In this document: positions 7,256-28,945 of the stretch, in pieces
Layout of the letters: the number at the start of each line of letters is the position of its first letter
Position numbering within the stretch: the first letter of the stretch is position 1
NCBI GenBank assembly: GCA_944392705.1
Contig: CALXXO010000010.1
Span: 1 to 32,548 of the forward strand
DNA: 32,548 bases
From: an uncultured Spirochaetaceae bacterium
Lineage (GTDB): Bacteria > Spirochaetota > Spirochaetia > Sphaerochaetales > Sphaerochaetaceae
Reading direction: 5' to 3'
Made by a program: the position numbers and the translations under genes
Notes under the pieces: generated by a model
The model's input: only the letters and a program-made list of their open reading frames with translations
Told to the model about the DNA's origin: nothing
Databases searched by the model: none

Positions 7256-12226
<4,971 letters not shown>

Positions 12227-12230
<4 letters not shown>

Positions 12231-13771
12231 TTCTTAAGATTCATCTCCTGGAACTCGGAGGGGGTTATTCCCGTTATATTCTTGAATGCTCTGGAAAATG
12301 ATCTGTAATCATGATAGCCGAGAACATACGCGATATCCGTTACCGAAGCATCCTTTTCGAGGAGCCGTTTCCGTGCATCCTCCATCTTGCGCTGAAGGAT
12401 GAATTCTCTCAGCGTTGTATCTGTCTTCTTCCGGAAATAGATTGCGGCGTAGGAAGGGCTGAGATTTACCAGATCTGCAATATCCTCGAGCCTTATCTGC
12501 TCCTCTGGGTGTGTGTCGATATACTCAATCATCTTCCTGATAATGGAATCGTCTTCCTCTTTTCCATTCAGCCGTTTCCTGGCTTCTTTCTCGCCGTATA
12601 CTGCATCGATGTAATGAGCGATGTCCGAGAATAATGAATTGAGTCCATCTTCAAGTGATGAGATTGTGTTGTATCTGGTTATATCAATAGCTTCTGGAAT
12701 CAGGGATGCATTTCCTATGAGGGCGTCCAGGATTTTCCCTTCTTCCCTCACGAGCCAGTAGGTGATGCTGTAGACATAGTTCGGTGGCGGCATCGTCGCT
12801 CCGAGAAGTTTGTTTATGAATGATGAGCAGAAAGCTCTTATTCCCTCAGTGTCATTTGATAGTATGTACTCCGAAAGCGTTTCGGCATCAGCTTCCGATG
12901 GCTTGTATTCCGGCGGTGTGGTTGCAATCATATCGGAGGTGAATATCCTGGAGTTCTCATCATACAGCTGGTAGGAGAGTGCGACAGCTGCTTTGCTGAA
13001 TGATGACGAGACGGCAGTTGGCCTGTCGACTACATTTCCGATTGCAATCTTTGGAAAAGGTAGATTGCTATCGCTGAGTGCTTTCAGGGATTCTTCCGCT
13101 ATCTGGAAAGGAGGTTTCTCGGAAAGGCTGAAAATTGCCCTGATTATCCTCTGGTCCTTGTTCCAGATTATCCTTTTCAGTCCTTCGGTAGCTTTCTCGA
13201 GAACTGATATCGTTCCTTCCTTTATAGGAGACTGGAAAGACATGATCATGGCAAAGCACGCCCCGGTGGATAGCGCTTCCTGCCCGGTTGTCAGCATGGT
13301 CATGACAGCGGAACTGTCAAGAATCTTGCCTTCTGCAAGATCGTTGAGAGTTGACCTGCTGATTCTTATTCCTTCTTTTCCGTTGTCTGTAATCTTTCTT
13401 TTTCTGAGTGAAGCCAGAGTCTCTCTCAGCTCATCTGCATCGACTGGTTTCAGAAGATAGGCTTTGGCCTGGAAGCGAAGTGCGGTCCGCGCATAATCGA
13501 AGTTGCCATAACCGCTTAGGATTATGATATCTGTATCTATGGCCGCATCTGCCAGCTTTTCCAGTACAGCCAGTCCTGTTAGCCCTGGCATCATGATATC
13601 CATAATCGCAAAGTCCGGTTTCAATGCGAGAATCTTCTCCAATGCTTCCTGTCCTGTGGAAGCCACAGCTATTACAGATATGCCCAGTTCCTCCCACACG
13701 GAAAGGGAAGCGAGTCCCTCTGTTATTGCTGGTTCATCGTCTGCTAAAAGTGCTGTGAGGTATGGATTCAT
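12227..13771 (-). CDS. YesN-type response regulator (receiver + AraC DNA-binding domain)
   Basis: A 514-residue regulator. The N-terminal receiver has the acidic pair in ADDEP, the phosphorylated Asp in AIMDIMMPG, a Ser in ILSGYG and the Lys in YLLKPVD. A middle region of about 270 residues has no clear domain. The last 100 residues are an AraC-type double helix-turn-helix (VNLSPSYAAIYFRKK and VLGYHDYRSFSRAFKNITGITPSEF). It is expected to activate the divergent binding-protein/permease genes. Two ATGs exist. The one at 13789 has GAGG pressed against it, too close to work, while the one at 13771 lies exactly 6 bases past a perfect TATAAT, which fits a leaderless start; I chose 13771. It overlaps the downstream kinase gene by 4 bases. 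Confidence 0.92.
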
Positions 13772-13783
13772 GAGCGCATTATA
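13772..13783 (-). promoter_or_regulatory. -10 box of the regulator/kinase operon
   Basis: On the minus strand a perfect TATAAT (13778-13783) sits 6 bases before the ATG at 13771. No good -35 box is found 16-18 bases upstream, which suggests that an activator, perhaps the regulator itself, is needed. The ATG at 13789 would lie upstream of this transcription start. Confidence 0.45.
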
Positions 13784-13813
13784 ACGCATCCTCGGTTAAA
13801 TTTCCGTTGAATG

Positions 13814-13913: not shown

Positions 13914-15284
13914 ATGAAAAGAGCAGCAAAGATGCTTCTCCTTGCAGGAATAATCCTGTCACTTTTCGTTGGACCAGTATTCGCAGGTGGTTCAAGTGAA
14001 TCATCTTCATCCGATGGAAAGATTGTCATAGAGGTATGGTCAGAAGACAGACATGACATGGAATATGTTGAGTCAAAGGTGGCAGAGTACAATGCAACCA
14101 ACACTGATAATATCCAGATCAATCTTACTATCATCTCTGATAACTTCCGCAATATGCTCCAGATGGCATACAGCGGTGGAACAGCACCTGATGTAGCTGG
14201 TATCAACGCTATTCCTATCAATATGCTTGCAGACACAGGCATCGCAATGCCGCTCAATGACTTCATTGCAGAGTCTCCTGAGTATCAGAAGGTAAACGAT
14301 CCTTACAACCAGATTTATGAGGGAACAAACGCAAAGAACGGCAACATCTATTGGATTCCTACAGGAATGAGATCCGGTGTCCGTGTCATCTACAACAAGG
14401 ACCTTCTCGAGCAGTGCGGATATACAGAGATTCCTAAGACTCTCGAGGGATATATTGATATGGCAAAGGACATCACAGAGCAGGGAAACAGCAGATTCTA
14501 CGGAATCGGATTCACAAATGCTTCCCCATTCGAGAGACTTCTTGAGATGGTCGCTGAGATGTCTGGAATCTATTACTATGATTATGTAAATGGCCGCTTC
14601 GACTTCTCTGGCTACAAGCCGGTTATCGAGCTGGGCAGAAGATTCTTCACAGAGAATATCGCATATCCAGATCAGCAGGGTGTTGATAATATGCGCGCTC
14701 TCTTCTCTGTCGGTATGTTCGCTCTCTGGTCAAATGCATCCCAGGAGGCTGCAGTATTCACAGAGCAGATTCCTGTTCAGGGATTCGAGTGGGGCGTTGC
14801 AGAGCTTCCTACCCTCACTGGCGAGGTGACAGGTGCTCTCGAGACAACACCATCCAAGGGCTGGGGAATCATCTCCTCAACAGATCATCCAGAAGAAGCA
14901 TGGAAGGTTATCGAATTCTTCCAGTCTGAGGACTTCCTCAAAGGATACCTTGAAGCTGGTTACTGTCTGCCATCAACAGACTATATGGCTTCTGTAATCG
15001 ACAGCTCCAAGACAGGACGCCTTGCAGACTTCGCTCTCAAGCCGTATGAGACAGTTTATCCGAAGCCGCCAGCAGTCAACCTCTCCGGAGATGACTACCG
15101 CACAGTATTCTGGAATGCTGTAATGGGCTATGTTGATATCGATACAGCTATCAATGATCTCAACACACGCTACAACGAAGCACTCGATGCTGATGTTGCT
15201 TCCGGATCTGCTACAAGGCTTGTAATCAAGGATTACGATCCACTTCACCCAGATCAGGGAACACCTGAGTATCTTACAGAATAG
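13914..15284 (+). CDS. Extracellular sugar-binding protein of an ABC importer (family 1)
   Basis: A 456-residue periplasmic solute-binding protein. The signal peptide has a KR start, a hydrophobic core and a likely cut after VFA (residue 24), followed by a low-complexity GGSSESSSSDG linker. The mature part begins IVIEVWSEDRHD and has the family-1 pattern GGTAPDVAGINAIP, LEQCGYTEIPKTLEGYIDMAKDI and PSKGWGIISSTDHPEEAWKVIEFF. There is no lipobox cysteine. It captures an oligosaccharide and delivers it to the two permeases downstream. The ribosome binding site AAGGAGGATACA is near ideal. The stop codon is inside a stem-loop with a UUCG loop, and a second hairpin follows, probably lowering permease output relative to this gene. 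Mannose/galactose-containing ligands are suggested only by the neighbours. Confidence 0.94.
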   Translation: MKRAAKMLLLAGIILSLFVGPVFAGGSSESSSSDGKIVIEVWSEDRHDMEYVESKVAEYNATNTDNIQINLTIISDNFRNMLQMAYSGGTAPDVAGINAIPINMLADTGIAMPLNDFIAESPEYQKVNDPYNQIYEGTNAKNGNIYWIPTGMRSGVRVIYNKDLLEQCGYTEIPKTLEGYIDMAKDITEQGNSRFYGIGFTNASPFERLLEMVAEMSGIYYYDYVNGRFDFSGYKPVIELGRRFFTENIAYPDQQGVDNMRALFSVGMFALWSNASQEAAVFTEQIPVQGFEWGVAELPTLTGEVTGALETTPSKGWGIISSTDHPEEAWKVIEFFQSEDFLKGYLEAGYCLPSTDYMASVIDSSKTGRLADFALKPYETVYPKPPAVNLSGDDYRTVFWNAVMGYVDIDTAINDLNTRYNEALDADVASGSATRLVIKDYDPLHPDQGTPEYLTE

Positions 15285-15333
15285 TCTTCGGACTATTGAA
15301 TCATGAAGGGGAGCTTCATGCTCCCCCTTCTTT
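15280..15333 (+). terminator. Tandem hairpins between binding protein and permeases
   Basis: Hairpin 1 is a 7-bp stem (15280-15286 with 15291-15297) closed by a C(UUCG)G tetraloop, with the TAG stop inside the stem. Hairpin 2 is GGGGAGC (15308-15314) with GCTCCCC (15320-15326), followed by CTTCTTTCC. Together they can stabilise the upstream message and partly terminate, which is the usual way to make more binding protein than permease. Confidence 0.6.
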
Positions 15334-15353
15334 CCATTAGAAAAGGAGGACAG

Positions 15354-16277
15354 ATGAATAACAAAGCTCCTAGAATGGTGAAGAAGGAGGATAAGAAGGA
15401 TAGGATTGCAGCGATTCTGATGCTCTCTCCTGTTGTCTTCCTCCTGCTTATCTGTTCAATCTACCCATTCATTTGGATGTTCCGCTATGTCTGTTATGAT
15501 TACAACGGCTTCAATGCCACATTCACAGGCACAAGGAACTTCACAAGAATGATTGCTGACACAACCTTCTGGACAAGTGTCGGCCATACATTTGAATACG
15601 CTCTTTATAAGCTTGTATTCATTATCCCACTAGCTCTTATCTGTGCAGTTCTTTTGAACCAGAAGATAAAGGGCACATCGGTATTCCGTGCCGTTTATTT
15701 CATGCCGACGGTAATAAGCTCATCTATCTCCGGCATGATCTTCACATTCATTTTCGCGACACAGAACGGTATTCTCAACGGTATGCTGATGGCACTTGGT
15801 ATGGATGCTCCTATACCTTGGCTTACAAGTCCCGATTACGTGATGAGCGCCGTTACTGTTCTGGCTGTCTGGGGTGGTTTCGGTAACTATATGCTGTATT
15901 TCATCACCGGTATGAACGTCATATCAGAGGATGTATATGAAGCAGCGAAGATTGATGGAGCAAATGGTGTCCAGACATTCTTCAAGATAACACTTCCAAT
16001 GCTTAGCCCGATCCTGAAGGTCGTACTCATGCTGGCAATCACAGGTGCGTTCAAGGACTATGAAGCTATCATGGTTCTTACGCAGGGAGGTCCTGGCAAC
16101 AGGTCAATGGTCATGTTCCTCTACATCTACAACATGATCTTCGGCTCCGGTTTGACAAACATGACTCAGCCACAGATTGGATATGGTGCGCTTCTTTCCG
16201 TTGTCGCAGCAATTATCGTCGGTATCGTCACGATTGCTTACCAGCGCATAGCGCGTAAGCTTGATGATGTGATGTAA
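15354..16277 (+). CDS. ABC sugar importer permease (MalF/UgpA type)
   Basis: A 307-residue inner-membrane protein with about six transmembrane spans. The cytoplasmic coupling loop, EAAKIDGANGVQTFFKITLP near residues 196-215, is the EAA motif that docks on the ATPase. The start at 15354 follows AAAGGAGGACAG; an in-frame upstream ATG (15303) would run through the intergenic hairpin and is rejected. It pairs with the next gene to form the membrane channel for the sugar carried by the binding protein. No ATPase gene lies in the window, so a shared ATPase of MsmX/UgpC type encoded elsewhere probably powers it. Confidence 0.95.
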   Translation: MNNKAPRMVKKEDKKDRIAAILMLSPVVFLLLICSIYPFIWMFRYVCYDYNGFNATFTGTRNFTRMIADTTFWTSVGHTFEYALYKLVFIIPLALICAVLLNQKIKGTSVFRAVYFMPTVISSSISGMIFTFIFATQNGILNGMLMALGMDAPIPWLTSPDYVMSAVTVLAVWGGFGNYMLYFITGMNVISEDVYEAAKIDGANGVQTFFKITLPMLSPILKVVLMLAITGAFKDYEAIMVLTQGGPGNRSMVMFLYIYNMIFGSGLTNMTQPQIGYGALLSVVAAIIVGIVTIAYQRIARKLDDVM

Positions 16278-16287
16278 GGGGGACGAT

Positions 16288-17154
16288 ATGGAGAAATCAA
16301 GAGCTGTAATGTCAGGAAAGCAGAAGGCCGTGATGTCTGTCATCTGGGTTCTCATGTTTATCCTTGCAATCATAACAATCTTCCCTGTCGTCTACATTGT
16401 TCTCGGTTCTTTCAAGAGCAATGTTGAACTCCTGGTCGGTGGGTCCAATATCTTCCCGTCTGAGTGGCACCCTGAGAATTATGTACAGGCCTGGACAGGG
16501 GCGAAGTTCGCTACATACACATGGAACAGTGTTGTTATATCCGTGGGTGTTATGCTTATTTCGCTTTTCATTTCCACTATGGCAGGATATGTATTCTCCC
16601 GTAGCCATTTCCCTGGAAAGAATCTCATTTACGGTATCTTCGTTGCATTCATGTTCATAAACGTAGGTTCTGTATCAATCAGGCCGCTTTATGAGCTTGC
16701 GACAGTACTGCACCTCAATGAGAGTCTTATTCCGATTATCCTCATCTCAGTCGGAACAGGACAGGCTACTTACATCTTCCTCTCAAGGGGATTTGTGGAT
16801 TCAGTTCCTCGTGAGCTTGATGAAGCTGCAAAGATCGATGGATGTACATTCTTCCAGACCTTCATCAAGATTATTCTTCCTGTACTGAAACCAGTAATGG
16901 GCACTATCGCGCTCCTTTCATTCCGCCAGGGATGGAACGAATACATTATGCCTTTGGTTTTCACAATGGCGAGGGACAATCTCAGACCACTTACAGTTGG
17001 TGTAAATATGCTTAAGGCAACAGGCGGTGGCGCAGCTGCATGGAACGTAATGTTCGCAGGTGCATCTATTGCAGTTGTTCCTATGCTTATCATTTACATA
17101 ATCTTCAATAAGAACTTCATGAGCGGCTCAACAGCCGGCGCTGTGAAGGGTTGA
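16288..17154 (+). CDS. ABC sugar importer permease (MalG/UgpE type)
   Basis: A 288-residue partner permease with about six membrane spans, starting 10 bases after the first permease and preceded by GGGGG at a workable distance. The EAA loop is ELDEAAKIDGCTFFQTFIKI near residues 176-195. It forms the heterodimeric channel with the preceding permease. The gene ends just before a strong terminator-like hairpin. The family is certain; the transported sugar is not. Confidence 0.95.
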   Translation: MEKSRAVMSGKQKAVMSVIWVLMFILAIITIFPVVYIVLGSFKSNVELLVGGSNIFPSEWHPENYVQAWTGAKFATYTWNSVVISVGVMLISLFISTMAGYVFSRSHFPGKNLIYGIFVAFMFINVGSVSIRPLYELATVLHLNESLIPIILISVGTGQATYIFLSRGFVDSVPRELDEAAKIDGCTFFQTFIKIILPVLKPVMGTIALLSFRQGWNEYIMPLVFTMARDNLRPLTVGVNMLKATGGGAAAWNVMFAGASIAVVPMLIIYIIFNKNFMSGSTAGAVKG

Positions 17155-17160
17155 TTAAAC

Positions 17161-17185
17161 GGGGGCTTTGGCCCCCATATATTTT
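17161..17185 (+). terminator. Intrinsic terminator/attenuator after the permeases
   Basis: GGGGGC (17161-17166) pairs with GCCCCC (17171-17176) around TTTG, followed by ATATATTTT. It sits 6 bases after the permease stop and 11 bases before the ATG of the 801-residue protein, so that gene is either expressed by readthrough or has its own weak start signal. Confidence 0.7.
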
Positions 17186-17195
17186 GGGTTTCACT

Positions 17196-19601
17196 ATGCG
17201 CGCTTTGGATAATAATGGCTTTGTCTTAAGCTATCTTACAGCAATAACTGAAGAGGATTATCTCTCCTCGCTTTCCGATAGAAACCAGCTTCGGCTTGAA
17301 GCACGGCTCAGGGGATGTATCGCAGAGAAAAAAGAGAAAAATATCTCCGTTCCAGAGATAAGAATCGGGGACGATGGTTGGGTTCCCTATTATTCCCACG
17401 GAAATATCTTCGTCGACAGATCATCTTTCTATTCAACTCTGAAGAGAATCAGGATGAGAGCTGCATCCACTTTGATTTCAGATGAGGATATTGCTGTCGA
17501 TGCTGTGCTTTGGACATACATGGCGACAGCTGTGTATCTCGATGGAGCTCTCGTTGCCGAATCCACGCATCCTGTTTATAAGCCAATCCAGAGCGTCAAA
17601 TTCACACTGAACTTGAAAAAGGGAAGGAATGAGCTTTACTTTCTTTCAGATAACCTTGGCGTAAGGGATACAAGGAATATGTTTGCCTTCCAGATTCTGA
17701 CTGGAAGGGAACATATAACCACATCCATTCCTGACAAGGATGCAGAGCGCGAGTATTTAAAAGCTTCATCTTTCCTCGATTCAATCGAAATCGGTAAAGG
17801 TTCGCTGACATTTAATTGCCCTGCAGATAATGGGACAAAGCTTGTTTACTCAGTCAGCACCGTTGATTATGCAAAGAAAAAGGAACTGGTAACGGCTGTG
17901 GAAATTGACGGCAAGCAGAATGTATCGGTTCCTGAAGGAATAGAAAGCTGCCGGATTGTGCTGTCAAACGGTATGTCGCGCCGTTTTGAATTCTCTGAGC
18001 GTATAAATCCGGAGTACCTCCCTGTAAGAAATAACTGGAATGCCCATTTCGCTGATATCATCAAGCGCATAGCGGATGTGTCGTTATTGGATCGCGATGA
18101 GTTCGGCTTCGCTATATTCTCCCTTCTTGCACGTAAGTACCTTGGGATTGAATGGAAGAATGACATTGATCTTCTTCGCAATGATATAGAGCTGATCAAA
18201 AAGAGAGTTGATTGCTCCGATTTCCTCATGTGCGGTCTTTTGAGGTATATCCATGAGTATGGACTGCCTGAGGCCGTGAAGGCAGAAGCGGAGGATGCGA
18301 TTCTGAACTACCGTTATTGGATGACCATGAAGGGGGCGGACGGGATGTGTTTCTGGTCTGAGAATCACTCTCTGATGTTCTGGTTCTCCGCTTGTGATGC
18401 AGGTCTTCTTTTCCCGGACAAGCTTTTCCCGCGCACAGGAATGACAGGTTCCGAGCTCCATGCTTATGGGGAGAAGCGTTTAGATGAATGGCTCGATGAT
18501 GTTCTGGAGCACGGCTACGAGGAGTTCCTGAGCTCAACATATATGTCAGTCACTCTTGCGGCACTTCTGAACGTCATTGATTACACCCGCCCAGAGATTT
18601 CAGCAAAAGCTGTCAAAGCAGCGGATTACATACTGAAGATGCTTTCAGAAAGCACATTCAAGGGATCCGTTATTGCTCCTATGGGAAGAGTCTACAGGGG
18701 AGTGCTGTATCCATTCAGGGAGTGTGTTTCTGCCTGGATTAATGCAATAGATGAGGAAGTGCCTTCGGCATATGGAGAAGGCTGGCTTGCTTTCCTCGCT
18801 TCCAGTTCTTACAAGTTCCCAGATGGGCTTAAGGCGCTGATGGAAGGCGATGTGTGCAAGAAGTATTCTACAGGCAATGCCCTTGTATCAGTGGAGAAAA
18901 ATGAAAGCTACATCCTGACTGCGGTGGAATCTCCACGCCATGATGGTTTTAAGAGGTGGAGAAATACTGTCGGTGATGAAGGAAAGGATGCAGAGGATAA
19001 TACTTTCGTCAAATCATTGAATGAATGCTTCCATGGAACATCATGCTTCCAGCCTGGAGTGTATGGTTATCAGCAGCATATGTGGTCAGCAGCTCTTTCT
19101 GGATCTGCTTTAATATTCGCAAATCACCCTGGAACGACCTCTGAAGATGCAGAGCTCAGACCTGGATATTGGAATGGAAACGGTGTAATGCCAGCTATAA
19201 CAACGGGGAAAGGAGAGATTTCTGTGATTTATTCGATTCCAGAGAATCATCCTGTACCTTTCACGCACCTCTACCTTCCAGCCTTCAGATTCGCGGAAGT
19301 AAGGACAGATGGCAGGTGGATATTCCTCAGAGAAGGCGAGGGCTATCTTGCTCTCTGGGCAAGTGGAGAGCTTGTTCCTTATGACGACATAATGGCATCT
19401 TCTGAGCTGCGTCTCTATTCAAGGAACTCCGCATATTATGTCAGAGCCGGGAAGAAGAGCGAGGAGAGTTTTGAGTCTTTTATTGCGAGGATGAAGATGC
19501 TTGATGTAGAGTTCTCGGAAGAAAAGCTTGAACTCATCGTTGATGGGAACGTTAAGGCTGAATTCATAGCTGTTGATGATAAAACCCAGTATCTTGATTG
19601 A
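17196..19601 (+). CDS. Large uncharacterised protein, candidate carbohydrate-active enzyme
   Basis: An 801-residue cytoplasmic protein (no signal peptide) that I cannot assign to a named family. An N-terminal beta-rich part (about 50-270) has VYLDGALVAES and LKKGRNELYFLSDNLG, like accessory sandwiches of glycosidases. A helical middle (about 285-560) looks like an alpha/alpha toroid and contains FWSENHSLMFW (386-396), DAGLLFPDKLFP and TGMTGSE. The C-terminal part has GYQQHMWSAAL (624-634), FANHPGTTSE and RPGYWNGNGVMP, then beta strands. The conserved-looking Trp, Glu, Asn and His clusters suggest an active site, perhaps a hydrolase, lyase or epimerase. The start at 17196 has only a weak GGG; an upstream frame from 17151 overlaps the permease and the terminator and is unlikely. 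It follows the importer genes, so it probably acts on the imported glycan. Confidence 0.85.
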   Translation: MRALDNNGFVLSYLTAITEEDYLSSLSDRNQLRLEARLRGCIAEKKEKNISVPEIRIGDDGWVPYYSHGNIFVDRSSFYSTLKRIRMRAASTLISDEDIAVDAVLWTYMATAVYLDGALVAESTHPVYKPIQSVKFTLNLKKGRNELYFLSDNLGVRDTRNMFAFQILTGREHITTSIPDKDAEREYLKASSFLDSIEIGKGSLTFNCPADNGTKLVYSVSTVDYAKKKELVTAVEIDGKQNVSVPEGIESCRIVLSNGMSRRFEFSERINPEYLPVRNNWNAHFADIIKRIADVSLLDRDEFGFAIFSLLARKYLGIEWKNDIDLLRNDIELIKKRVDCSDFLMCGLLRYIHEYGLPEAVKAEAEDAILNYRYWMTMKGADGMCFWSENHSLMFWFSACDAGLLFPDKLFPRTGMTGSELHAYGEKRLDEWLDDVLEHGYEEFLSSTYMSVTLAALLNVIDYTRPEISAKAVKAADYILKMLSESTFKGSVIAPMGRVYRGVLYPFRECVSAWINAIDEEVPSAYGEGWLAFLASSSYKFPDGLKALMEGDVCKKYSTGNALVSVEKNESYILTAVESPRHDGFKRWRNTVGDEGKDAEDNTFVKSLNECFHGTSCFQPGVYGYQQHMWSAALSGSALIFANHPGTTSEDAELRPGYWNGNGVMPAITTGKGEISVIYSIPENHPVPFTHLYLPAFRFAEVRTDGRWIFLREGEGYLALWASGELVPYDDIMASSELRLYSRNSAYYVRAGKKSEESFESFIARMKMLDVEFSEEKLELIVDGNVKAEFIAVDDKTQYLD

Positions 19602-19607
19602 ATGTTA

Positions 19608-19640
19608 ATCGTCTCATGCACTATGCGTGAGACGATCCAT
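19608..19640 (+). terminator. Terminator after the 801-residue gene
   Basis: ATCGTCTCA (19608-19616) pairs with TGAGACGAT (19628-19636), and three more pairs including one G-U extend the stem to 12 bp around ACTAT. The plus-strand tail CCATTCTTTCTCTT is T-rich. The stem overlaps the last codons of the hipA remnant on the other strand. Confidence 0.6.
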
Positions 19641-20067
19641 TCTTTCTCTTATAAATGGTGCCGTAAGAAAACCTGCCAGGCTTGCCCTGGAGGTCGTTGC
19701 CCGAAGCATTATCGGAGTTGTTGAGATCAGCAATTCCTTTTCCAGAATATCCTTGTATGAGGATTCAGCATTCTTGCTTTGCTCTTCTTGGCAGAGGATT
19801 GTGCCTGCTACCTCTCCTCCATAGTTCTGAAGAAGTTTGAAAACGCTCATGTAGGATATGTGCTTGGCATCTGCAATCTGTATTCTGATCTGCCCATCGG
19901 GGAGAAGCCCGCTGAAAAAGGGAAGGCATTCTGCTTCAGGGAATGGTTGCTTCCTTATAGGAAGGCTTGTGGAAAGGGGAGTTTTCCACAATTGATCATA
20001 AGTGAACTGGAGTTGTTTCCAATTTGCCGCAATGCTTTCCATTCCAGTATATATTCAGGAGCGCCAT
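19614..20067 (-). pseudogene. hipA-like toxin kinase remnant: frameshifted and truncated
   Basis: This is the N-terminal domain of a HipA-type Ser/Thr kinase toxin, in pieces. The ATG at 20067 shares a base with the hipB stop (TAATG) and gives MALLNIYWNGKHCGKLE, a standard HipA beginning, but the frame stops at 19996. In another frame, from about 20010 down to 19614, the domain continues with FTYDQLWK, PLSTSLPIRKQ, LPFFSGLLPDGQ and GGEVAGTI. The two halves join across a net one-base indel near 20003-20026. Sequence then reaches SRASLAG, where HipA proteins begin the kinase domain, and ends at a stop 19 codons later. The whole kinase domain is absent because the converging 801-residue gene starts there. 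A separate N-domain gene of HipBST type was considered, but no HipT kinase follows and the start is broken. Confidence 0.75.
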
Positions 20068-20285
20068 TATCTTTCCTTTGCATATAAATTGATAGCAGCC
20101 ATGCTAAGCACATGGATAGTTTTATCGAATTGGACAGTTGGTTTCCCATTCTCAAGATCGGAGATGAATCTAACTCCAGTGCCGACAGCTTTTGCAAAGT
20201 CAGCCTGAGTGTAGCCAAGTTCTTTTCTTCTTGCTCTTATTATTTTTCCAACATCCTCTGCAGAAATGATTCTTGTTTCTTCCAT
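20067..20285 (-). CDS. HipB-like antitoxin/repressor, Cro/C1-type helix-turn-helix
   Basis: A 72-residue DNA-binding protein. The XRE helix-turn-helix is clear: IRARRKELGYTQADFAKAVG, followed by VRFISDLENGKPTVQFDKTIHVLSMAAI, the pattern of HipB antitoxins. HipB normally binds HipA and represses its own operon. Here the partner kinase is broken, so only the repressor may remain. The longer open frame to 20483 is not supported; ATG 20285 sits 6 bases after a good -10 box and has no ribosome binding site, fitting a leaderless message. Three related inverted repeats lie upstream, one between the -35 and -10. The stop overlaps the hipA start by one base. Confidence 0.85.
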   Translation of the reverse strand: MEETRIISAEDVGKIIRARRKELGYTQADFAKAVGTGVRFISDLENGKPTVQFDKTIHVLSMAAINLYAKER

Positions 20286-20320
20286 AATAAAACTATATTT
20301 TCCCGATAGGGAATAATCAA
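20286..20320 (-). promoter_or_regulatory. hipB promoter with embedded operator
   Basis: On the minus strand TTGATT (20315-20320), a 17-base spacer and TATAGT (20292-20297) lie 6 bases before the ATG. The inverted repeat TTCCCTATCGGGAA (20300-20313) fills the spacer, so a bound repressor would block RNA polymerase directly. Transcription is predicted to start at the ATG itself. Confidence 0.65.
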
Positions 20321-20390
20321 GAAAATAATTGATAATTTGCCCGAACGGTAAAACTATCAGATATGTATCGCTTTTCTTACCGTTAGGGAA
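20300..20390. promoter_or_regulatory. Three hip operators at 38-39 bp spacing
   Basis: Plus-strand copies are TTCCCGATAGGGAA (20300-20313), TGCCCGAACGGTAA (20338-20351) and TTACCGTTAGGGAA (20377-20390). All fit T(T/G)NCC-N4-GGNAA. Starts are 38 and 39 bp apart. E. coli HipB also binds several spaced palindromes at its own promoter, though with a different sequence. Confidence 0.6.
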
Positions 20391-20459
20391 AATATTTTCT
20401 ATTCGATATGGCGACAACCTTTTATGTTTGCAGATGACATTTGTATGACTTACACGACA

Positions 20460-20479
20460 ACAGCCCCAATAGGGGCTGT
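20460..20479 (-). terminator. Hairpin downstream of the GH31 pseudogene
   Basis: ACAGCCCC (20460-20467) and GGGGCTGT (20472-20479) form a perfect 8-bp stem with a 4-base loop. On the minus strand it follows the GH31 stop by 28 bases and is followed by TGTCGTGT, a poor T-run, so termination may be weak. Confidence 0.5.
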
Positions 20480-20507
20480 CCATGTGGGATTGGGCAGCTG
20501 CTTTTCA

Positions 20508-22619
20508 TTAAGATTTCAGCGAGATTGCAGTCCTGTATGATTTGTCATAAATCGTAAGCTTGCCGTTCTTGATTTCCGCTATATCGCTGAGAACCGCATC
20601 GGATGCATTACACAGAATTAGCTTTTTTTCACCATCCTCTTCTATCGGGATTATCGAATTCTCTCTTATATAAAGAGGTAAGGAGAAATAGTCATATTTC
20701 TTCTTTATCCAGATTGGTCCTGTCTCAGAACTTCCATCCATTAATGAAATCCATTTACCTTTTGGAAGGTAGCATCGTCCTTCTCCATCTTCCCTGAATA
20801 CAGGGGCGACAAGAAGAGAGGATCCCAGCATATATTGCTGATCAAGGTATTTCATGATTTCATCATCCGTCCCGAACTCAAGAAGCATGGGGCGAAGCAC
20901 TGGGATTCCAGTCATACAGGCTTCTCTTGCTTCATGCATGAGATATGGAAGCAGTTTCATTTTTAAATGGGTAAAGAATGAAGTCACGCGGCAAGCTTCC
21001 TCATCGAATGCCCATGGTACTCTGTAAGAAGAACTACCGTGTAGTCTGGAGTGTGTTGATAGTAGACCGAAAGCTACCCATCGCTTGAATAAATCAGTGG
21101 TTGTTGTATCCTCGAATCCACCAATATCGTGGCTCCAGAATCCAAATCCTGAGAGAGCGAGCGATAATCCTCCTCGAAGTGTCTCGGCCATCGAAATATA
21201 TGATGCTACGTTATCCCCTGCCCAATGCACGGGGAAACGCTGGCTTCCTATAGTTCCAGAGCGAGTAAAAACTATTGCGTCTTTTCCTCTTTTCCTGCTC
21301 TCCACCTCAAAGACTGCTTCGTTGTAGATATAGGTATACTTGTTATGCATTAACGCTGGATTAGAGCCATCGAACCAGATTACATCATCTGTTGGTATAT
21401 TTTCTCCGAAGTCCGTCTTGAAGCAATCGACACCCATATCTGAAAGACTTTCAAGATAACTCTGATACCAGTGTTTTGCATCGGGGTTCGTAAAGTCGAC
21501 TATAGCCATCCCCGCCTGCCAAACATCGCATTGCCAGACACTTCCATCTTTTCTTTTAAGGAAATAACCTTTTTCTGCCCCATCATCAAACAACCTTGAT
21601 TTCTGGGCAATATATGGGTTAATCCAGACGCTGACTTTAAGTCCTCTGTCATGAAGCTTCTGGAGCATTCCTTCCGGATCTGGAAACATCCTTCTGTCCC
21701 AGAGGAAATCAGACCACTGGAATTCCTTCATCCAGAAACAGTCGAAGTGGATTACAGAAAGCGGTATGTCATACTCTTTCATTTTATCAACGAAAGATAA
21801 TACCGTTTCCTCTCTGTAATCTGTTGTGAATGAAGTAGAGAGCCATAGCCCGAATGACCATTCTGGTGGAAGAGGTGGTCGGCCTGTGAGCGAAGTATAC
21901 GCAGAGACAACATCCTTAAGCGTATCACCAGCTATGATGCAGTATGAAAGTTTCTCTCCTGCTACTGAGAATTGTGCGCACTCTGCAACTTCGCTCCCGA
22001 TTTCGAATGATACTCAGCACGAAGACGCCATAGTTCTTTGAGGAGATGAAGAATGGTACATTTTTGTGTGACATTTCGCTGGCACATCCACTATCGAGAT
22101 TCCACATATCGACACGTTGCCCATTTTTAGGAAAAGCCGTGAATCGTTCGCCAAGACCGTAGTAGGTTTCTCCTATGTCACTTGTAAGATACTCCGCCAT
22201 GTATCTTCCATTAGGCGTTGTCATACACCCAGAAAGTCTTGAGAAGCGTCTGGTGATTTCTTTCCCGCCATATGAGAAGACAAGTTCGTTATCCTTGAGT
22301 TCTGCCGTTAACTTTCCAGTTGAAATGGACGTTTCTGTCATATTAGCAGTAACAGGGGGAGAAAGTTCAGGAAATGGCTTTTGCTGTAACGTTCCTTTGT
22401 GATGATAGACATCTACTCGGAGAATGTTTTCTCCGAGTGCGGTTATGTCCGTTGTTATTACAGGATTGTTCAGTGTATCGTTGCGCGTTACGATGGGGAA
22501 TGCGCAGGAATAGGCTGAGAGCTTGTTACTATTGCTTTCAATCTCGAAATAGTTTTTTTCGGAATACAGCGTGATGCCCTCATCCAAATGCCAGACCAGA
22601 ATCCGTTTCTGAATCTCAT
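20508..22619 (-). pseudogene. YicI-like GH31 alpha-xylosidase/alpha-glucosidase, frameshifted twice
   Basis: Three frame segments together make a nearly full GH31 enzyme (about 704 codons; E. coli YicI has 772). The ATG at 22619 overlaps the GH28 stop as ATGA and gives MRFRNGFW, then the frame must shift near 22591-22600 to continue as WHLDEGITLYSEKNY. That frame runs to FFISSKNYGVFV, where a second shift near 22012-22022 is needed to reach VSFEIGSE. By comparison with YicI about 11 bases are missing there. The rest is intact: WSFGLWLSTSF, HFDCFWMK, the nucleophile region CFKTDFGENIPTDD, and the acid/base region HWAGDN. A functional copy would remove alpha-xylose or alpha-glucose from oligosaccharides in the cytoplasm. 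Either the gene is decaying or the assembly has errors here; the 3' open frame alone starts at 21782. Confidence 0.82.
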
Positions 22620-24169
22620 ATTCTTTCAAATCCTTCCGAATCTTCTGTGATCATCATTTCCCTTGTGTTCATTGCCCGTGGCTTGATTTCCACATTTTCA
22701 AGCTTTACATTCTCCGTGTGCCTGATGTAGAAGCCATAGGATGGCATATCACCGAGGGCATTTGATTCTGGATAATCAGTGACGTTCTCTCTGATTTCAG
22801 GGAGTATTTCAAGCCTTTCCTCGTTGTCGAGATAAGTTGCCTTTAGGTTCTTTATCTCTACATCCTTGATTCTTCCTGTATATCCTTCATCATCTTTGAA
22901 TCCCGTGATTATACAGCTTGATTCCATTCCCTCTGCTTCGACATTCTCGATGGTTATTCCGCTTACGGAGCCGCCTTTGGCTTTTTCTTTCCTATCCTCG
23001 TCTGAGAGGAAACCGAACTTGCATCTTCTACAGAGAGAGATGAATACAGGCACTGCTATATTCTTCATCTTTATGTTTTTGAGATGGATATCGGAGATAT
23101 TCGAACCATCTGCAGATTCTATCGAGATTCCGGAAACTCCTCCTGGGAAGATATCGAGGAGCATGAAAAGACAATTCGTGCATTTTACTCCCTTTATATC
23201 AAAATATGTCTCCGTTCCTATCTTGAAAGAGTTCATGACTGAGATGACGACAGCGTCATCTATCTCTATATCCTCAGCAGGGCCCATTTTCATCTTGGAG
23301 TTCTCTACATTGATGCTGTCATGTCCCTGAACCATCGGGGCTTTGATGCAGAGTCCGTCATCAGCTGTGCTGACAAACACGTGCTTAACCCTTACGTGTT
23401 TTGATGACATGATATCTATGCCATCGGTATTTGCTACGTGCCTGTTATTATCAATCACTATATCTTTGACTGTGACATTCTCGGACATATCAATCGAAAG
23501 CGACCAGTCGAGGGAGTCCCTGATGATGATGTTGTGGATATCAGCATTGCGGCAGCCACGGATCCAGAGAGTGTACATTGGGCGAGGAATGTTCTCTTTC
23601 CCTTCATTCCATTTGTCCTCTGCATAGCGGATTCTCTCCCTGTATTTGAAGCGGGAGGTATCGGAAGGGGAGCCCATTGGATCTGTAAGCACCGGTGGAA
23701 GCTTTGTGTATCCAAGCGGTGTTGTCAGCGGGCGTTCATGTGGAAGATATACAAAGTATTCACCATTTGCGTTGATTCTTCCTCCTCCGCATATTGTGAT
23801 ATTCTCTGCATCCACAGCCTTTATGAAAGCATCTGAGAATTTTGATAAATCTTTAGACGCATTTATTGATGAGCCAGATTCTATATAAAGGGTAGTGTCG
23901 GAATGTATCGACAACGTTCCTGAAGTATAGGCACCGCCGCTGATTACAACTGTTCCTTTTTTGCCTGCGGCATCGTCCAAAGCTTTCTGTATGGCTTCGG
24001 TTGAAAGGACTCCTGCTTCTGGGACTGCTCCGTAATCGCGAACATCAAAGACAGGAGATGATGGAATCTGCTCTTCTGAGATATAGAGGTGGTAGGGTAT
24101 ATCCTGATAATAATCACCTTCAAAGATAATTCCGTTATCTGGGAATGTTGGAGTATCAAAAACTTTCAT
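22616..24169 (-). CDS. GH28-type right-handed beta-helix hydrolase (polygalacturonase-like)
   Basis: A 517-residue protein. The N-terminus leads into FDVRDYGAV and STEAIQKALDDAA, the usual opening of GH28 and related pectate-lyase-fold enzymes. The catalytic carboxylate motifs are present: NTDGIDI and STADDGLCIKA. The expected GHG histidine motif is not found; its place seems taken by SVMNSFKIGTET, a form seen in GH28 relatives. Thus the fold is safe but polygalacturonan hydrolysis is not. No signal peptide is visible, so the substrate would be an imported oligosaccharide. The start at 24169 follows AAGGAAGAAAA; an upstream in-frame start at 24337 would overlap pyruvate kinase. It is followed by the GH31 gene with an ATGA overlap, so the two form an operon. 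Confidence 0.85.
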   Translation of the reverse strand: MKVFDTPTFPDNGIIFEGDYYQDIPYHLYISEEQIPSSPVFDVRDYGAVPEAGVLSTEAIQKALDDAAGKKGTVVISGGAYTSGTLSIHSDTTLYIESGSSINASKDLSKFSDAFIKAVDAENITICGGGRINANGEYFVYLPHERPLTTPLGYTKLPPVLTDPMGSPSDTSRFKYRERIRYAEDKWNEGKENIPRPMYTLWIRGCRNADIHNIIIRDSLDWSLSIDMSENVTVKDIVIDNNRHVANTDGIDIMSSKHVRVKHVFVSTADDGLCIKAPMVQGHDSINVENSKMKMGPAEDIEIDDAVVISVMNSFKIGTETYFDIKGVKCTNCLFMLLDIFPGGVSGISIESADGSNISDIHLKNIKMKNIAVPVFISLCRRCKFGFLSDEDRKEKAKGGSVSGITIENVEAEGMESSCIITGFKDDEGYTGRIKDVEIKNLKATYLDNEERLEILPEIRENVTDYPESNALGDMPSYGFYIRHTENVKLENVEIKPRAMNTREMMITEDSEGFERI

Positions 24170-24183
24170 TTTTCTTCCTTTTT

Positions 24184-24220
24184 TAAAAAGAATACCCTTC
24201 CTGTTTTCATTCAGAAAGGG
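24184..24220 (-). terminator. Intrinsic terminator of pyruvate kinase
   Basis: On the minus strand CCTTTCTG and CAGGAAGG form a stem (one mismatch, 24195-24203 with 24212-24220), followed by TATTCTTTTT. It lies between the pyruvate kinase stop and the GH28 ribosome binding site, so GH28 is either read through from pyk or has a promoter I could not identify. Confidence 0.6.
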
Positions 24221-24246
24221 CAAGTTCCATTCTTTATGTGGCTTTT

Positions 24247-25665
24247 TCAGATTTTCGAGATCTGCATCGAATCGGCATACCTGAAACCGGGGATGGAGCC
24301 AGAGATGATTACAGCAAGATCGTTCTTGGATACGCATTTTGATTTCAGTGCAAGTTCGATGGACTGATCTCTCATCTTCACGACATCATCTGTGAATGGT
24401 GCAAGGAGAGGGGTCACTCCATACGCGAGCTTTAGCTGCCTTGCTGCTTTTTCATCTGTTACACAGACTATCACAGGGCATTCAGGGCGGAAGGAGGATG
24501 TGAGCCATCCTGTTCTTCCTGTCGCTGTCATGCAGATAATTGCCTTTGCTCCGAGAGAGAAGGATGCTTCAACAGCTGCACTGGAGATTGTTCCCGGGAT
24601 ATCAAGGGAGACATTTGATGCCTGATTCTCAAAGTAGCGATTGCGGTAATCTATCTGTCTCTCTGTATACTCTGCAATCTCAGACATTGTCTTAACAGCT
24701 TCAATTGGATATTTTCCTGCAGCAGTTTCTCCGCTTAGCATTGTACAGGTAGTTCCATCGAAGATTGCATTGGCAACATCGGAGACTTCCGCTCTTGTAG
24801 GGCGGGAATGCTCTGTCATTGATTCCAGCATTTGGGTTGCTGTAACGACGATTTTGCCAGCTTTGATGCATTTTGAGACCATCATCTTCTGGATGACGGG
24901 GAGCTCTTTGAATGGAATCTCGACCCCCATATCACCACGGGCAACCATTATTCCATCAGCGACTTTGATTATCTCGTCGAGATTGTCGATTCCGCTCCTG
25001 TTCTCAATCTTTGCAATAATCTTGATTTTCTCTCCGCCGTTTACATTGAGAAGCTTTCTCATTTTCTTTACATCATCTGCTGTGCGGACAAATGATGCGG
25101 AGACATAATCTACATCCATCTCTATTCCGAAAAGAAGGTCGGCTCTGTCTGCTTCAGAGATAAATGGCTGATCGATATCAACACCGGGGATATTGATTGA
25201 TTTGTGGTTTGAAATACGCGATGTATTGTTTACACGGCATATTACATCCGGTCCGTTGATTGCAGTTACTGTAAGGGAGCAAAGCCCATCATCAATAAGT
25301 ATCGAGGTTCCGACTTCAACATCTTCTGCAAGGTATGGATATGTAATTGATACACCAGTTTCATCTCCTTCTCTGTTTTTATCAGCGGAAAGAGTGAATT
25401 CCGTTCCTTCTTTGAGGATTACAGCTCCATTCTTGAATTCTCTTGTCCTTATTTCAGGGCCTTTTGTGTCGAGGATAAGAGGAATGTTTGCACCCATTTT
25501 GTGTGCAACTTTTCTTATTCTTTCGATTCTTCCTTTATGCTCTTCATGTGATCCGTGGGAGAAGTTGAGCCTAGCAGCATCCATTCCGTTGTTTATTAGC
25601 GCGCGGATCATTTCATCGCTATCAACAGCGGGTCCGAGCGTGCAGATTATTTTAGTCTTTCTCAT
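24247..25665 (-). CDS. pyk: Pyruvate kinase
   Basis: A 472-residue enzyme that converts phosphoenolpyruvate and ADP to pyruvate and ATP in the last step of glycolysis. Diagnostic features are MRKTKIICTLGPA at the start, DAARLNFSHG, LDTKGPEIRT, the B domain (about 70-165), the signature lysine in KIIAKIENRSG, the metal site IMVARGDMGVEI, and VTATQMLESM. The C-terminal domain is normal for the 470-residue tetrameric form without the extra PEP-utiliser domain. The ATG follows GAGAGGGACTAA; this purine stretch lies in a small hairpin of the leader. A sigma-70-like promoter sits just upstream. It is transcribed toward the GH28/GH31 genes but separated by a terminator. Confidence 0.96.
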   Translation of the reverse strand: MRKTKIICTLGPAVDSDEMIRALINNGMDAARLNFSHGSHEEHKGRIERIRKVAHKMGANIPLILDTKGPEIRTREFKNGAVILKEGTEFTLSADKNREGDETGVSITYPYLAEDVEVGTSILIDDGLCSLTVTAINGPDVICRVNNTSRISNHKSINIPGVDIDQPFISEADRADLLFGIEMDVDYVSASFVRTADDVKKMRKLLNVNGGEKIKIIAKIENRSGIDNLDEIIKVADGIMVARGDMGVEIPFKELPVIQKMMVSKCIKAGKIVVTATQMLESMTEHSRPTRAEVSDVANAIFDGTTCTMLSGETAAGKYPIEAVKTMSEIAEYTERQIDYRNRYFENQASNVSLDIPGTISSAAVEASFSLGAKAIICMTATGRTGWLTSSFRPECPVIVCVTDEKAARQLKLAYGVTPLLAPFTDDVVKMRDQSIELALKSKCVSKNDLAVIISGSIPGFRYADSMQISKI

Positions 25666-26022: not shown

Positions 26023-28035
26023 TCATTTGATTGTCACATACTTGTCGATTGAGATGTTATCAATCGTTTCCTGAGATATGGTTAGACCTGAGATAATAGC
26101 AGGTTTAAGTGCATTTCCATGAATCTTGATCTGTTTGTCGGAATTAAGGCTCATAGACTCACTTATTGACCATAATCCTGACAGATAGATGTTGATATTA
26201 TCTTCCGTTGTTTTTTTCAGGAAATCAATCAGATCATCTATAGTTTCGAAGATTTCTGTACCATCGGCAGTTGAGACAAGAATACCTTCTTCTGGAATAG
26301 CCATGTATGAAAGTGTGTCGATATCATAAGTCTCAGCTCCGACAGGCCGTCCAGGAAGATCTGGAACATGAAGATTCGTGCTTGTTTCTACTATAAATTC
26401 TCCAAGCACATAATCTTCAGGTTTCAATATTTCAAGATTGTTCCATGCCTGGATTTCTGCTGTATTTACTTCCAGATTATCTACAGCATTTTCAATCTCA
26501 TTTCCCGATGAATCGTATACTGCAGCGATATTCTGGATATCGCCTAGTCTCAGTTTTTTGTTAGGCTCTGTTTTGCCGATAATGAAATCCGTACTATAAA
26601 TTAAATCAGTTGAAGATGAGATATCCACACTATTTCCGGCTGGGGAATAATCATTATCGAAGTAATATACTGAGAACAAATTCTGTCCTGCATACTTATT
26701 ATGTGCTTCTATTTTTCCTCCGTTTACAGTTATAGAACACTCCGATGAGCTATCAATAGCTAAAGTCGATCCCGTGTATGTCGTATCCCTTTCGCATGAT
26801 GTACCTATCAATGTCGTATTATTTAGAATTGAATCAATATCTTGTGAATTGGATTGAATATAATATGCATACCACCCACTTAAGACTGAATCATTGATGG
26901 TAACAGTACTCTTTGCGCCTGCTTCGTTTATGCCACATCCATACAATCTGACTCCGTAGCCATGGCCATCTTCTGCAATCGAACTGTTCGAAATGTCGAT
27001 ATTCACTATGTCAGCAGATTCGATATTGATTCCGATGCCATAAGCACCACCAGAAGAGTTGTCTACAGAGATTGTTGAATTCTCAATTTTCAGATTCAGC
27101 TCCGTATCATCTTCGTTTTCAGGCATTACAAAATTCATTCCGATTCGATACTGGCTTGTAGAAGAGGTATCTATGGAAATATATGAATTTCTTAAAGTTA
27201 CATCAGCGCTTTGGGGCCCTGAATATGCCTGAATACCCCTTACATCCGTAGGCGGTATAATTACACTGTTCTCTACAAGAAGGTCAAAATGCTCTAATCC
27301 CGTAGCGTTTTCTATTGATAATGAAACACTGCCTTGTGTTTTTGTTATGTAGACATTTTTGAGTGTTACTCTTTCTGCTGTATCTATAGTCAGGTCTGTA
27401 TCAATGATTGTAGCACCTGCATCCGTATATGAAACGGCCCGTCCCTCAGCAAATGAAACAGGAGAGGAACCTCCTCCGATTATCGACATACCATGATTTA
27501 TCGTAAAATCATTGGTTGAAGAATCCTCAAGATTGTCAAATGATCCTGAAGGAAGATAGAGAACGCTTATATCGTTGTCTTTCAATATATCCTGAAGAGA
27601 AGATTGTGTTTCATCTGTGGGGTTATATATTATGGTTGATGAGTCAGCTGCTATGTATTTTGCGGTTAATACCATATCATTTCGGATTGTACTTCCAGCC
27701 ATTATTTCATTGTCATCCTCATCAAACCAGCCTAATGCTTTTAGTCCTTCCATCTCAGGAAGATCTGGAACCTTTGCAGATGTAATGGTTTCATATACAT
27801 AGGGTTCATAATCCTGAATTTTTATCTGCAATGTCAAAACATATGAATTATCTGTGACAGGAGGTAGCGGAACAATAACTACCTGTCTACAGGCCGAAAG
27901 TGTAAACAGGATAAGCAACAGGAATACGACTAAAAACCTAAACCTATTCTCTCTCTCTCTCTTAAAAGAAAAGAGAAGTTTTTGATTGTGTATGAATGTT
28001 GTTTTTACGCTTTTGCTATCTTTTCCGTCAAACAA
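26023..28035 (-). CDS. Large lipoprotein with InlB-type repeat and beta-helix
   Basis: A surface-type lipoprotein of up to 670 residues. The hydrophobic core FLVVFLLLILFTL is followed by the lipobox LSAC (Cys49), so it should be lipidated and exported. Residues about 75-130 contain GWFDEDDNEIMAGSTIRNDMVLTAKY-like sequence of the Listeria-Bacteroides (InlB B, PF09479) repeat, in short GWFDEDD and LTAKY. Residues about 150-470 are rich in Ser, Thr, Asp and Asn with repeated turns such as LKNVYITKT, LRNSYISID and IENSTISVD, typical of a right-handed beta-helix. Function is unknown; adhesion or glycan binding is plausible. The only in-frame start is TTG at 28035 without a ribosome binding site, giving an unusually long 30-residue charged stretch before the signal core. 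A (GA)7 repeat at 27948-27962 lies in this stretch. Confidence 0.75.
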   Translation of the reverse strand: MFDGKDSKSVKTTFIHNQKLLFSFKRERENRFRFLVVFLLLILFTLSACRQVVIVPLPPVTDNSYVLTLQIKIQDYEPYVYETITSAKVPDLPEMEGLKALGWFDEDDNEIMAGSTIRNDMVLTAKYIAADSSTIIYNPTDETQSSLQDILKDNDISVLYLPSGSFDNLEDSSTNDFTINHGMSIIGGGSSPVSFAEGRAVSYTDAGATIIDTDLTIDTAERVTLKNVYITKTQGSVSLSIENATGLEHFDLLVENSVIIPPTDVRGIQAYSGPQSADVTLRNSYISIDTSSTSQYRIGMNFVMPENEDDTELNLKIENSTISVDNSSGGAYGIGINIESADIVNIDISNSSIAEDGHGYGVRLYGCGINEAGAKSTVTINDSVLSGWYAYYIQSNSQDIDSILNNTTLIGTSCERDTTYTGSTLAIDSSSECSITVNGGKIEAHNKYAGQNLFSVYYFDNDYSPAGNSVDISSSTDLIYSTDFIIGKTEPNKKLRLGDIQNIAAVYDSSGNEIENAVDNLEVNTAEIQAWNNLEILKPEDYVLGEFIVETSTNLHVPDLPGRPVGAETYDIDTLSYMAIPEEGILVSTADGTEIFETIDDLIDFLKKTTEDNINIYLSGLWSISESMSLNSDKQIKIHGNALKPAIISGLTISQETIDNISIDKYVTIK
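27948..27962. repeat. Dinucleotide (TC/GA) tract in the lipoprotein signal region
   Basis: Fifteen bases of alternating T and C on the plus strand (7.5 units) encode KRERE just before the signal-peptide core. Gain or loss of one unit would change the reading frame between the start codon and the signal peptide. Confidence 0.8.
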
Positions 28036-28477: not shown

Positions 28478-28945
28478 TTATAGGGTCTGACGCTCGAATC
28501 GCCTCTTTGGAGAGTGGTTCATCAATGAGGTCAGGCTTATTTTTATTCCTGTCAGTTCTATTGTGTATAGTGTATTGCCTTCGATGTTGCTCATTTTCAT
28601 CATTATCTGAGCCAAGCCGCGTTTACCTGATGGACTAAACTCAATAGCTGTTTCGTAATATCTGATTGCTACATCGGTGTTCCCTTTTCTATCAGGTCTC
28701 TCAATAATCATATGGCTATATTCATAAAGAATAACTACATTTGCAGCTGCAGTACTATGTTCTTGAGGAGAGAAGCCATTCTTTAATGACTTTTCACGTG
28801 ATTTGTTTGATATCATCTTATTGCGACCAACAGAACCATATCTAGCGATTGTACCATCTGAGATGTTCCTTATACTCTCTCCTTGGTGTTGCTTCAGATA
28901 ATAAGTGGCTTGCTCATTATTAGCCGCATAAACAGTATTTTTCAC
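28478..28945 (-). CDS. Phage-type polyvalent-protein nuclease-domain fragment (LPD3/BECR-like)
   Basis: A 155-codon frame with a GTG first codon and no ribosome binding site. Its middle reads KMISNKSREKSLKNGFSP, HSTAAANVVILYEYS, ERPDRKGNTDVAIRYYE and ends NTLYTIELTGI. This order resembles the small domain found at the C-terminus of giant phage polyvalent proteins (LPD3, or phage Barnase-EndoU-ColicinE5-RelE-like nucleases). The frame stays open upstream for another 27 codons (SPFSLKIQSETNYAEK) to a stop near 29016, which suggests the tail of a longer protein, not a complete gene. It lies 140 bases beyond the 3' end of tRNA-Ala on the same strand, a common integration site. The domain match is from memory of family patterns and is moderate. 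Confidence 0.55.
   Translation of the reverse strand: MKNTVYAANNEQATYYLKQHQGESIRNISDGTIARYGSVGRNKMISNKSREKSLKNGFSPQEHSTAAANVVILYEYSHMIIERPDRKGNTDVAIRYYETAIEFSPSGKRGLAQIMMKMSNIEGNTLYTIELTGIKISLTSLMNHSPKRRFERQTL

Follow-up and report, generated by a model that had tools for sequence, protein, structure and literature searches.

An 801-residue protein is encoded at the end of a sugar importer operon of an uncultured Spirochaetaceae bacterium, and the locus raises the question of what this protein does with the imported glycan. In the original prediction it was put forward as the best candidate for an undescribed enzyme acting on the imported oligosaccharide. The window, i.e. the whole stretch of DNA that was analysed, comprises 32,548 nucleotides.

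The gene and its locus

The open reading frame at 17196-19601 (+) was translated into 801 residues with no internal stop. Translation could alternatively begin at an in-frame TTG (17151), but the homologues fit the ATG at 17196. As full-length relatives with 36-72% identity were found in 60 loci and also in several congeneric genomes, the gene is real and not a chance reading frame. Translation, relatives, conservation and the structural model place the product as a clade I member of an unnamed lyase-like family (the clades are defined in the next section).

The enzyme gene is the last of a YesMN/ABC importer operon, which is the position originally described. It is preceded by the genes of an extracellular solute-binding protein of a sugar importer (13914-15284, +; Pfam SBP_bac_1), present near the family gene in 44 of the 60 clade I loci, and of two ABC permeases (15303-16277 and 16288-17154, both + and BPD_transp_1). 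The second permease gene is directly upstream of the enzyme gene; 36 of the 60 clade I loci show this arrangement, with both genes on one strand. The YesM-type sensor kinase (10551-12230, -; His_kinase, HAMP) and the YesN-type response regulator of the AraC type (12227-13789, -; Response_reg, HTH_18) are encoded upstream on the opposite strand. The locus also contains, further upstream, a GH2 beta-galactosidase (7514-10567, +; assigned by Pfam and NCBIfam comparison), and a GH38 alpha-mannosidase-like enzyme (4295-7246, -; Pfam), and downstream a GH28 enzyme (22616-24337, -; Pfam) whose best NCBIfam match, rhamnogalacturonidase BT4146, was below the cut-off. In many Lachnospiraceae a GH28 homologue directly follows the 3' end of the enzyme gene. 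The claim that the locus otherwise holds only glycan genes was accurate for YesMN, the importer, GH2, GH38 and GH28 but slightly overstated, as HipA-like genes and a pyruvate kinase gene also occur in the downstream part, along with GH28 and a disrupted GH31.

Several other features of the window were recorded. A GC-rich 16-base hairpin with a T-rich tail (GGGGGCTTTGGCCCCC; 17161-17176, +) is located in the gap that separates the second permease gene from the enzyme gene, and it may act as an attenuator damping the read-through into the latter. The GH31 alpha-xylosidase (20508-22629, -) is split into two open reading frames that are not in frame with each other, the N-terminal domain at 21925-22629 and the barrel at 20508-21782, being either a frameshifted pseudogene or an assembly error. 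At 19614-20483 (-), a 142-residue protein with only the N-terminal domain of HipA, lacking the HipA kinase body, is encoded beside an HTH protein of 138 residues; the pair is either a HipBS-like remnant or a small toxin-antitoxin pair. A 670-residue reading frame at 26023-28035 (-) had no Pfam or NCBIfam match and is close to the gene of an LPD3-domain protein (28478-28945), a kind of protein that is frequent in mobile elements.

Relatives and family membership

The scan of contigs resulted in the 60 loci mentioned above, which belong to Spirochaetales, Lachnospiraceae and other Clostridia, and Paenibacillus. Among 60 related genomes, 18 had matches; the window's own genome was one of them, with paralogues that are about 30% identical. 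A further 199 relatives with about 25-30% identity were detected in plasmid records, mostly of Rhizobium, Pseudosulfitobacter and Sinorhizobium, and were labelled 'hypothetical protein' where annotated. A third, more distant set was found by the phylum search in Spirochaetota. The family is thus widespread in bacteria, occurring in Spirochaetota, Bacillota and Proteobacteria.

In the maximum-likelihood tree of the catalytic part, these proteins formed three groups. Clade I, the group of the window protein, comprised 43 rows with the support of 100/100, clade II the proteins of proteobacterial plasmids together with Spirochaete paralogues, and clade III the distant Spirochaetota proteins. The proteins of the window's genus were nested with those of Lachnospiraceae (18 rows, support 98/88), which suggests horizontal transfer. 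Among related Spirochaetes (L001-L005, L008, L030, L031) the importer proteins encoded at 13914-17154 are 90-97% identical and the enzymes 61-72%, i.e. the transporter is conserved far more strongly than the enzyme. In three loci (L017:9998-13987, L073:9174-13163, L074:8120-12109) the family protein and a CehA/McbA-type PHP metallohydrolase domain form a single fusion protein of 1330 residues, and a related PHP gene adjoins the family gene in L034 and L019.

No match to the 801-residue protein or its wide relatives was obtained in Pfam, NCBIfam or PDB sequences, in agreement with the lack of a named family reported originally; the strong HMM match that would have spoken against a novel enzyme did not appear. 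The Pfam Hepar_II_III/PL12 models PF16889 and PF07940 matched none of the family members tested, while a true member encoded next to a relative's gene was matched. Profiles built from the query family (A1, A2) showed no significant link to any solved lyase among PDB sequences, while the control profile of heparinase II/III-family proteins (A3) found PL12, PL15, PL17, PL21, PL33, PL35, PL39 and PL40, which indicates that, by sequence, the query family belongs to none of these eight. Judged by Pfam, NCBIfam and PDB sequences (CAZy/dbCAN being outside this comparison), the family is unclassified. In the literature, no characterisation was found of the family, nor of any lyase encoded within the PglB/BglB operon considered below.

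Predicted fold and candidate active site

The full-length AlphaFold model had a pLDDT of 93.9. It consists of an N-terminal beta-sandwich (residues about 6-180; 17211-17735, +), a connecting region, an alpha/alpha toroid (residues about 272-550; 18009-18845, +) and a C-terminal beta-sandwich (residues about 552-801; 18849-19598, +). Read from this model, the toroid extends over about 281-550 and the C-terminal sandwich over about 553-789. The toroid holds D339, D342, D382, E389-N390-H391, E443, Y449 and R498, and the C-terminal sandwich Q626, H628, H644, H691 and E737. The N-terminal sandwich resembles the sugar-binding jelly roll of GH2 enzymes or PA14, with VIA-align Z values of 9-10 to GH2 N-terminal domains over about 120 residues. 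The sandwich-plus-toroid build anticipated from the sequence was therefore predicted here as well, with a second sandwich in addition.

In the Foldseek search with the whole protein, PL35 lyases ranked first, GH2 sandwiches crowded the list and a GH78 enzyme (2okx) was also present. Due to this blurring by GH2 N-terminal domains, residues 272-801 were refolded alone (pLDDT 92.3). The alignment used for folding was rebuilt without the rows of the plasmid collection. With this catalytic part, all 13 matches at E<=1e-3 were polysaccharide lyases (PL35 8khw/9o3q, PL15, PL8, PL39), whereas toroid hydrolases (GH92, GH95, GH63) appeared only at E>=5e-3, a weak match that by itself excludes nothing. 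By VIA-align, both domains (about 360-450 residues) were matched by PL35 (Z 10.4), PL17 (10.3), PL12 (10.2), dermatan sulfate epimerase (9.8) and PL40 (8.6), and also by PL21, PL8, PL33 and PL23, the overall range being Z 8-10.4. The hydrolases listed (GH105, GH76 and GH8-type) covered the toroid only, about 240 residues. The Foldseek TM-scores were modest (0.24-0.39) and the VIA rmsd values large (5.6-8), which indicates that the domain arrangement differs in detail from that of the matched lyases; with Z values in the middle range, the assignment is limited to membership in the fold group and does not imply close kinship. The structural matches listed contained no PL26, PL27 or PL42 enzyme and no further lyase of this pectin or gum type, an absence that excludes nothing. 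The toroid followed by an antiparallel beta-sandwich, characteristic of the heparinase II/III-like group, was present in both models and in the fold searches. The originally expected toroid was thus predicted, and its best matches were PL enzymes.

Residues D339, D342, F343, D382, E389, N390, H391, W432, E443, S446, Y449, R498, G624, Q626, P666, H691 and E737 were invariant in all 45 diverse members compared, whereas H644 was found in 44 and H628 in 35. The motifs pointed out earlier (FWSENH, QQHMW, NHPG, RPGYWNGNG) are all present and invariant or nearly so across the family. The catalytic triads of the fold group contain Asn (or Asn-His), Tyr 53-60 residues further on and His about 130-180 residues beyond it (PMC12088678; PMC12915356). 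In the query the N390-Y449 and Y449-H628 distances are 59 and 179. N390-H391 of the SENH motif (codons 18363-18368, +), candidates for the carboxylate neutraliser and the base, and Y449 (codon 18540-18542, +), the candidate general acid, are placed within the toroid as Asn-His followed by Tyr 50-60 residues on. Judged by their order and spacing in the sequence, N390-H391, Y449, H644 and H691 correspond to the Asn/His...Tyr...His machinery of these lyases. In the hhalign comparison with the Hepar_II_III profile, N390 and Y449 fell on its invariant Asn and Tyr, respectively, in a weak alignment (E 0.04-0.1) for which one of 100 column-shuffled controls scored equally high. DUF4962 was considered as the source of PL35/PL15 relatives for a second test of the register and was dropped due to mostly short and partial matches. 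The lyases of this group have their catalytic His in the first strands of the beta-sandwich. In the query the position of the base is uncertain: H628 has the spacing of the PL40 base but is absent in 10 of 45 members, and the alternatives in the sandwich are H644 and H691.

The closest known enzymes compare with the query as follows. The PL35 glycosaminoglycan lyases (GAGase II/VII and chondroitinase 9o3q), the best Foldseek matches, have the same toroid and antiparallel beta-sandwich with Asn, Tyr and His in the same order (N192, Y246, H401 of PL35). However, no sequence relation to them was found, the query has the extra N-terminal GH2-like sandwich, and the HxH metal motif is replaced by Q626-x-H628. 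The PL12, PL15, PL17 and PL21 heparinase and alginate lyases correspond in fold over 360-420 residues and have Asn or Asn-His, Tyr 53-58 residues on and an acidic residue 5-6 positions before Tyr, but the query family members tested are unmatched by the Pfam models of Hepar_II_III. The PL40 ulvan lyase Uly1040 (9vtk; PMC12915356) is similar in fold and in spacing, its N245-Y305-H485 distances being 60/180 compared with 59/179 in the query; its domain layout differs, and no sequence match was obtained although 9vtk was within the searched PDB set. The PL8 hyaluronate and xanthan lyases resemble the catalytic part in fold, but differ in the spacing of catalytic residues and are not related to it by sequence. 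Human dermatan sulfate epimerase 1 is similar in fold and is a eukaryotic biosynthetic epimerase, whereas the context of the query is catabolic.

Gene neighbourhoods and the proposed reaction

One neighbour search was applied to all loci, with 60 loci (1.17 Mb) of clade I and 25 of clade II; the latter are not all independent, three being close Rhizobium relatives. GH88 was found within 8 kb in 18 of the 25 clade II loci, in 11 of them directly adjacent on the same strand, in contrast to 0 of the 60 clade I loci. The paralogue in the window's own genome (G000:C11) is directly followed by GH88. In clade II, KduI was adjacent in four loci and KduD near in four; such genes are beside the family gene in Shinella, Gemmobacter, Pannonibacter, Pseudosulfitobacter and Thioclava. 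A clade II subgroup (G000:C94 in L070, L076, L079, L149) is divergent to ABC permeases and has no GH88. One clade III locus has the order FAM-GH88-MFS-KduI-KduD-FAM, where FAM is the family gene; in other clade III loci MFS and PfkB kinase genes are directly beside it, and KduD-like scores outside the former locus were weak and may represent other short-chain dehydrogenases. No KduI was found in the window's genome, which is 75% complete.

Near the clade I genes, GH28 was detected in 18, GH38 in 13 and GH2 in 12 of the 60 loci; GH38 was also near 4 of 25 clade II genes. A PL12-type heparinase II/III gene is directly 5' of the family gene in five clade I loci (L043, L045, L047, L056, L039; Paenibacillus and one Spirochaete contig), so that two lyase-fold enzymes are encoded in one gene cluster. 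In ten-odd loci of the Lacrimispora type the neighbours are housekeeping genes (EPSP synthase, prephenate dehydrogenase, leucyl-tRNA synthetase, elongation factor G), which indicates that not every member belongs to a glycan operon. With this exception the homologues were mostly in glycan loci, and the lack of glycan association that would have spoken against the original prediction was not observed.

GH88 and KduI/KduD act on unsaturated uronates, and clades II and III are therefore most simply explained as lyases. As every invariant residue is common to clade I, this clade would most simply share the same chemistry. Taken together, the window protein is rather probably an oligosaccharide lyase of an unnamed family within the heparinase II/III-like fold group, probably cytoplasmic and acting by beta-elimination at a uronate; a GH2-like sandwich is added at its N-terminus. 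Fold, residues and synteny were computed, and from them we infer the reaction, which residue is the base, where the enzyme acts and on what substrate. The original proposal of a glycan enzyme is supported; it did not name the chemistry, and here a lyase is favoured by the evidence over a generic glycosidase. A uronic-acid-containing oligosaccharide would be sensed by YesMN, imported by the adjacent ABC transporter and bound in the cleft between the toroid and the C-terminal sandwich. N390, with H391, would neutralise the uronate carboxylate, a histidine (H391, H644, H691 or H628) would take the C5 proton, and Y449 would protonate the leaving oxygen. The glycosidic bond at C4 would thereby be broken with the formation of a 4,5-unsaturated uronate, which in the sister clades GH88 and KduI/KduD would process; in the window's clade, GH28, GH2 and GH38 enzymes would trim the remainder.

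The evidence against a lyase includes that no GH88 or KduI adjoins any gene of clade I, the window's own clade, together with the missing sequence link to solved lyases, the modest structural scores and the uncertain base noted above. A glycoside hydrolase or phosphorylase built of an alpha/alpha toroid and a beta-sandwich, like GH78, GH95, GH63 or GH92, is unlikely, even though GH78 (2okx) was listed with the whole protein and GH92, GH95 and GH63 lower with the catalytic part, GH38, GH28 and GH2 are among the neighbours, and the acidic residues D339, D382, E389, E443 and E737 are invariant. In Foldseek, hydrolases matched the catalytic part only at E>=5e-3, all matches at E<=1e-3 being lyases; the hydrolases listed by VIA-align covered the toroid without the sandwich that lyases also cover; and GH88/KduI are partners in the sister clades. 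Dermatan sulfate epimerase uses a similar site to abstract and then return the C5 proton, and its structure (6hzn) was among the best matches over 451 residues. The same fold and residues could thus belong to a C5-epimerase or another uronate-modifying enzyme, with which the lack of GH88 and KduI in clade I would agree. This is very unlikely, since sister clades with the same invariant residues adjoin the genes for lyase products and an epimerase alone would be of little use to a catabolic import operon.

For the lyase, an oligosaccharide of the pectic or rhamnogalacturonan type is the most likely substrate. The GH28 partner in Rhizobium passes the cut-off of the PglB polygalacturonase, and a role of PglB in polygalacturonic acid degradation in Agrobacterium is reported in a review (PMC6683767); this link favours the pectic substrate. 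The partner GH88 passes the cut-off of 'beta-galactosidase BglB', a name which implies that it may not be a pure unsaturated-uronyl hydrolase. The pectic substrate leaves the neighbouring GH38 unexplained. With the same chemistry, a glucuronomannan-type or other mannose/uronate glycan would be cut at glucuronate by the lyase while GH38 removes alpha-mannose, in accordance with GH38 near the clade I genes and in the window, and with GH38 together with GH88 near Spirochaetota clade II genes (L151, L154, L156). This substrate appears somewhat doubtful, as GH28 is the commoner clade I partner and of the PglB type in Rhizobium, a rhamnose mutarotase gene is four genes from the family gene in Thioclava, and the GH2 beta-galactosidase suits pectic side chains.

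A further proposal, held tentatively and with some reserve, is that the proteins form a new family of polysaccharide lyases that is missing from CAZy too, with three old clades in Spirochaetota, Bacillota and Proteobacteria. Clade I would act intracellularly on a branched uronate glycan without GH88, the terminal uronate being handled by another enzyme, possibly the partner GH28.

The predicted shape, conserved residues and gene neighbours suggest that acidic sugar chains of plants or algae would be cut by elimination inside the cell. With the lyase assignment, a function open to testing is proposed for a protein that recurs in many gut bacterial genomes and in about 200 plasmid records, most of them rhizobial or marine, often inside uronate-sugar uptake operons. 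If the protein is a lyase, it would account for the initial step that is lacking in operons where the enzymes acting on unsaturated uronate products are already encoded.
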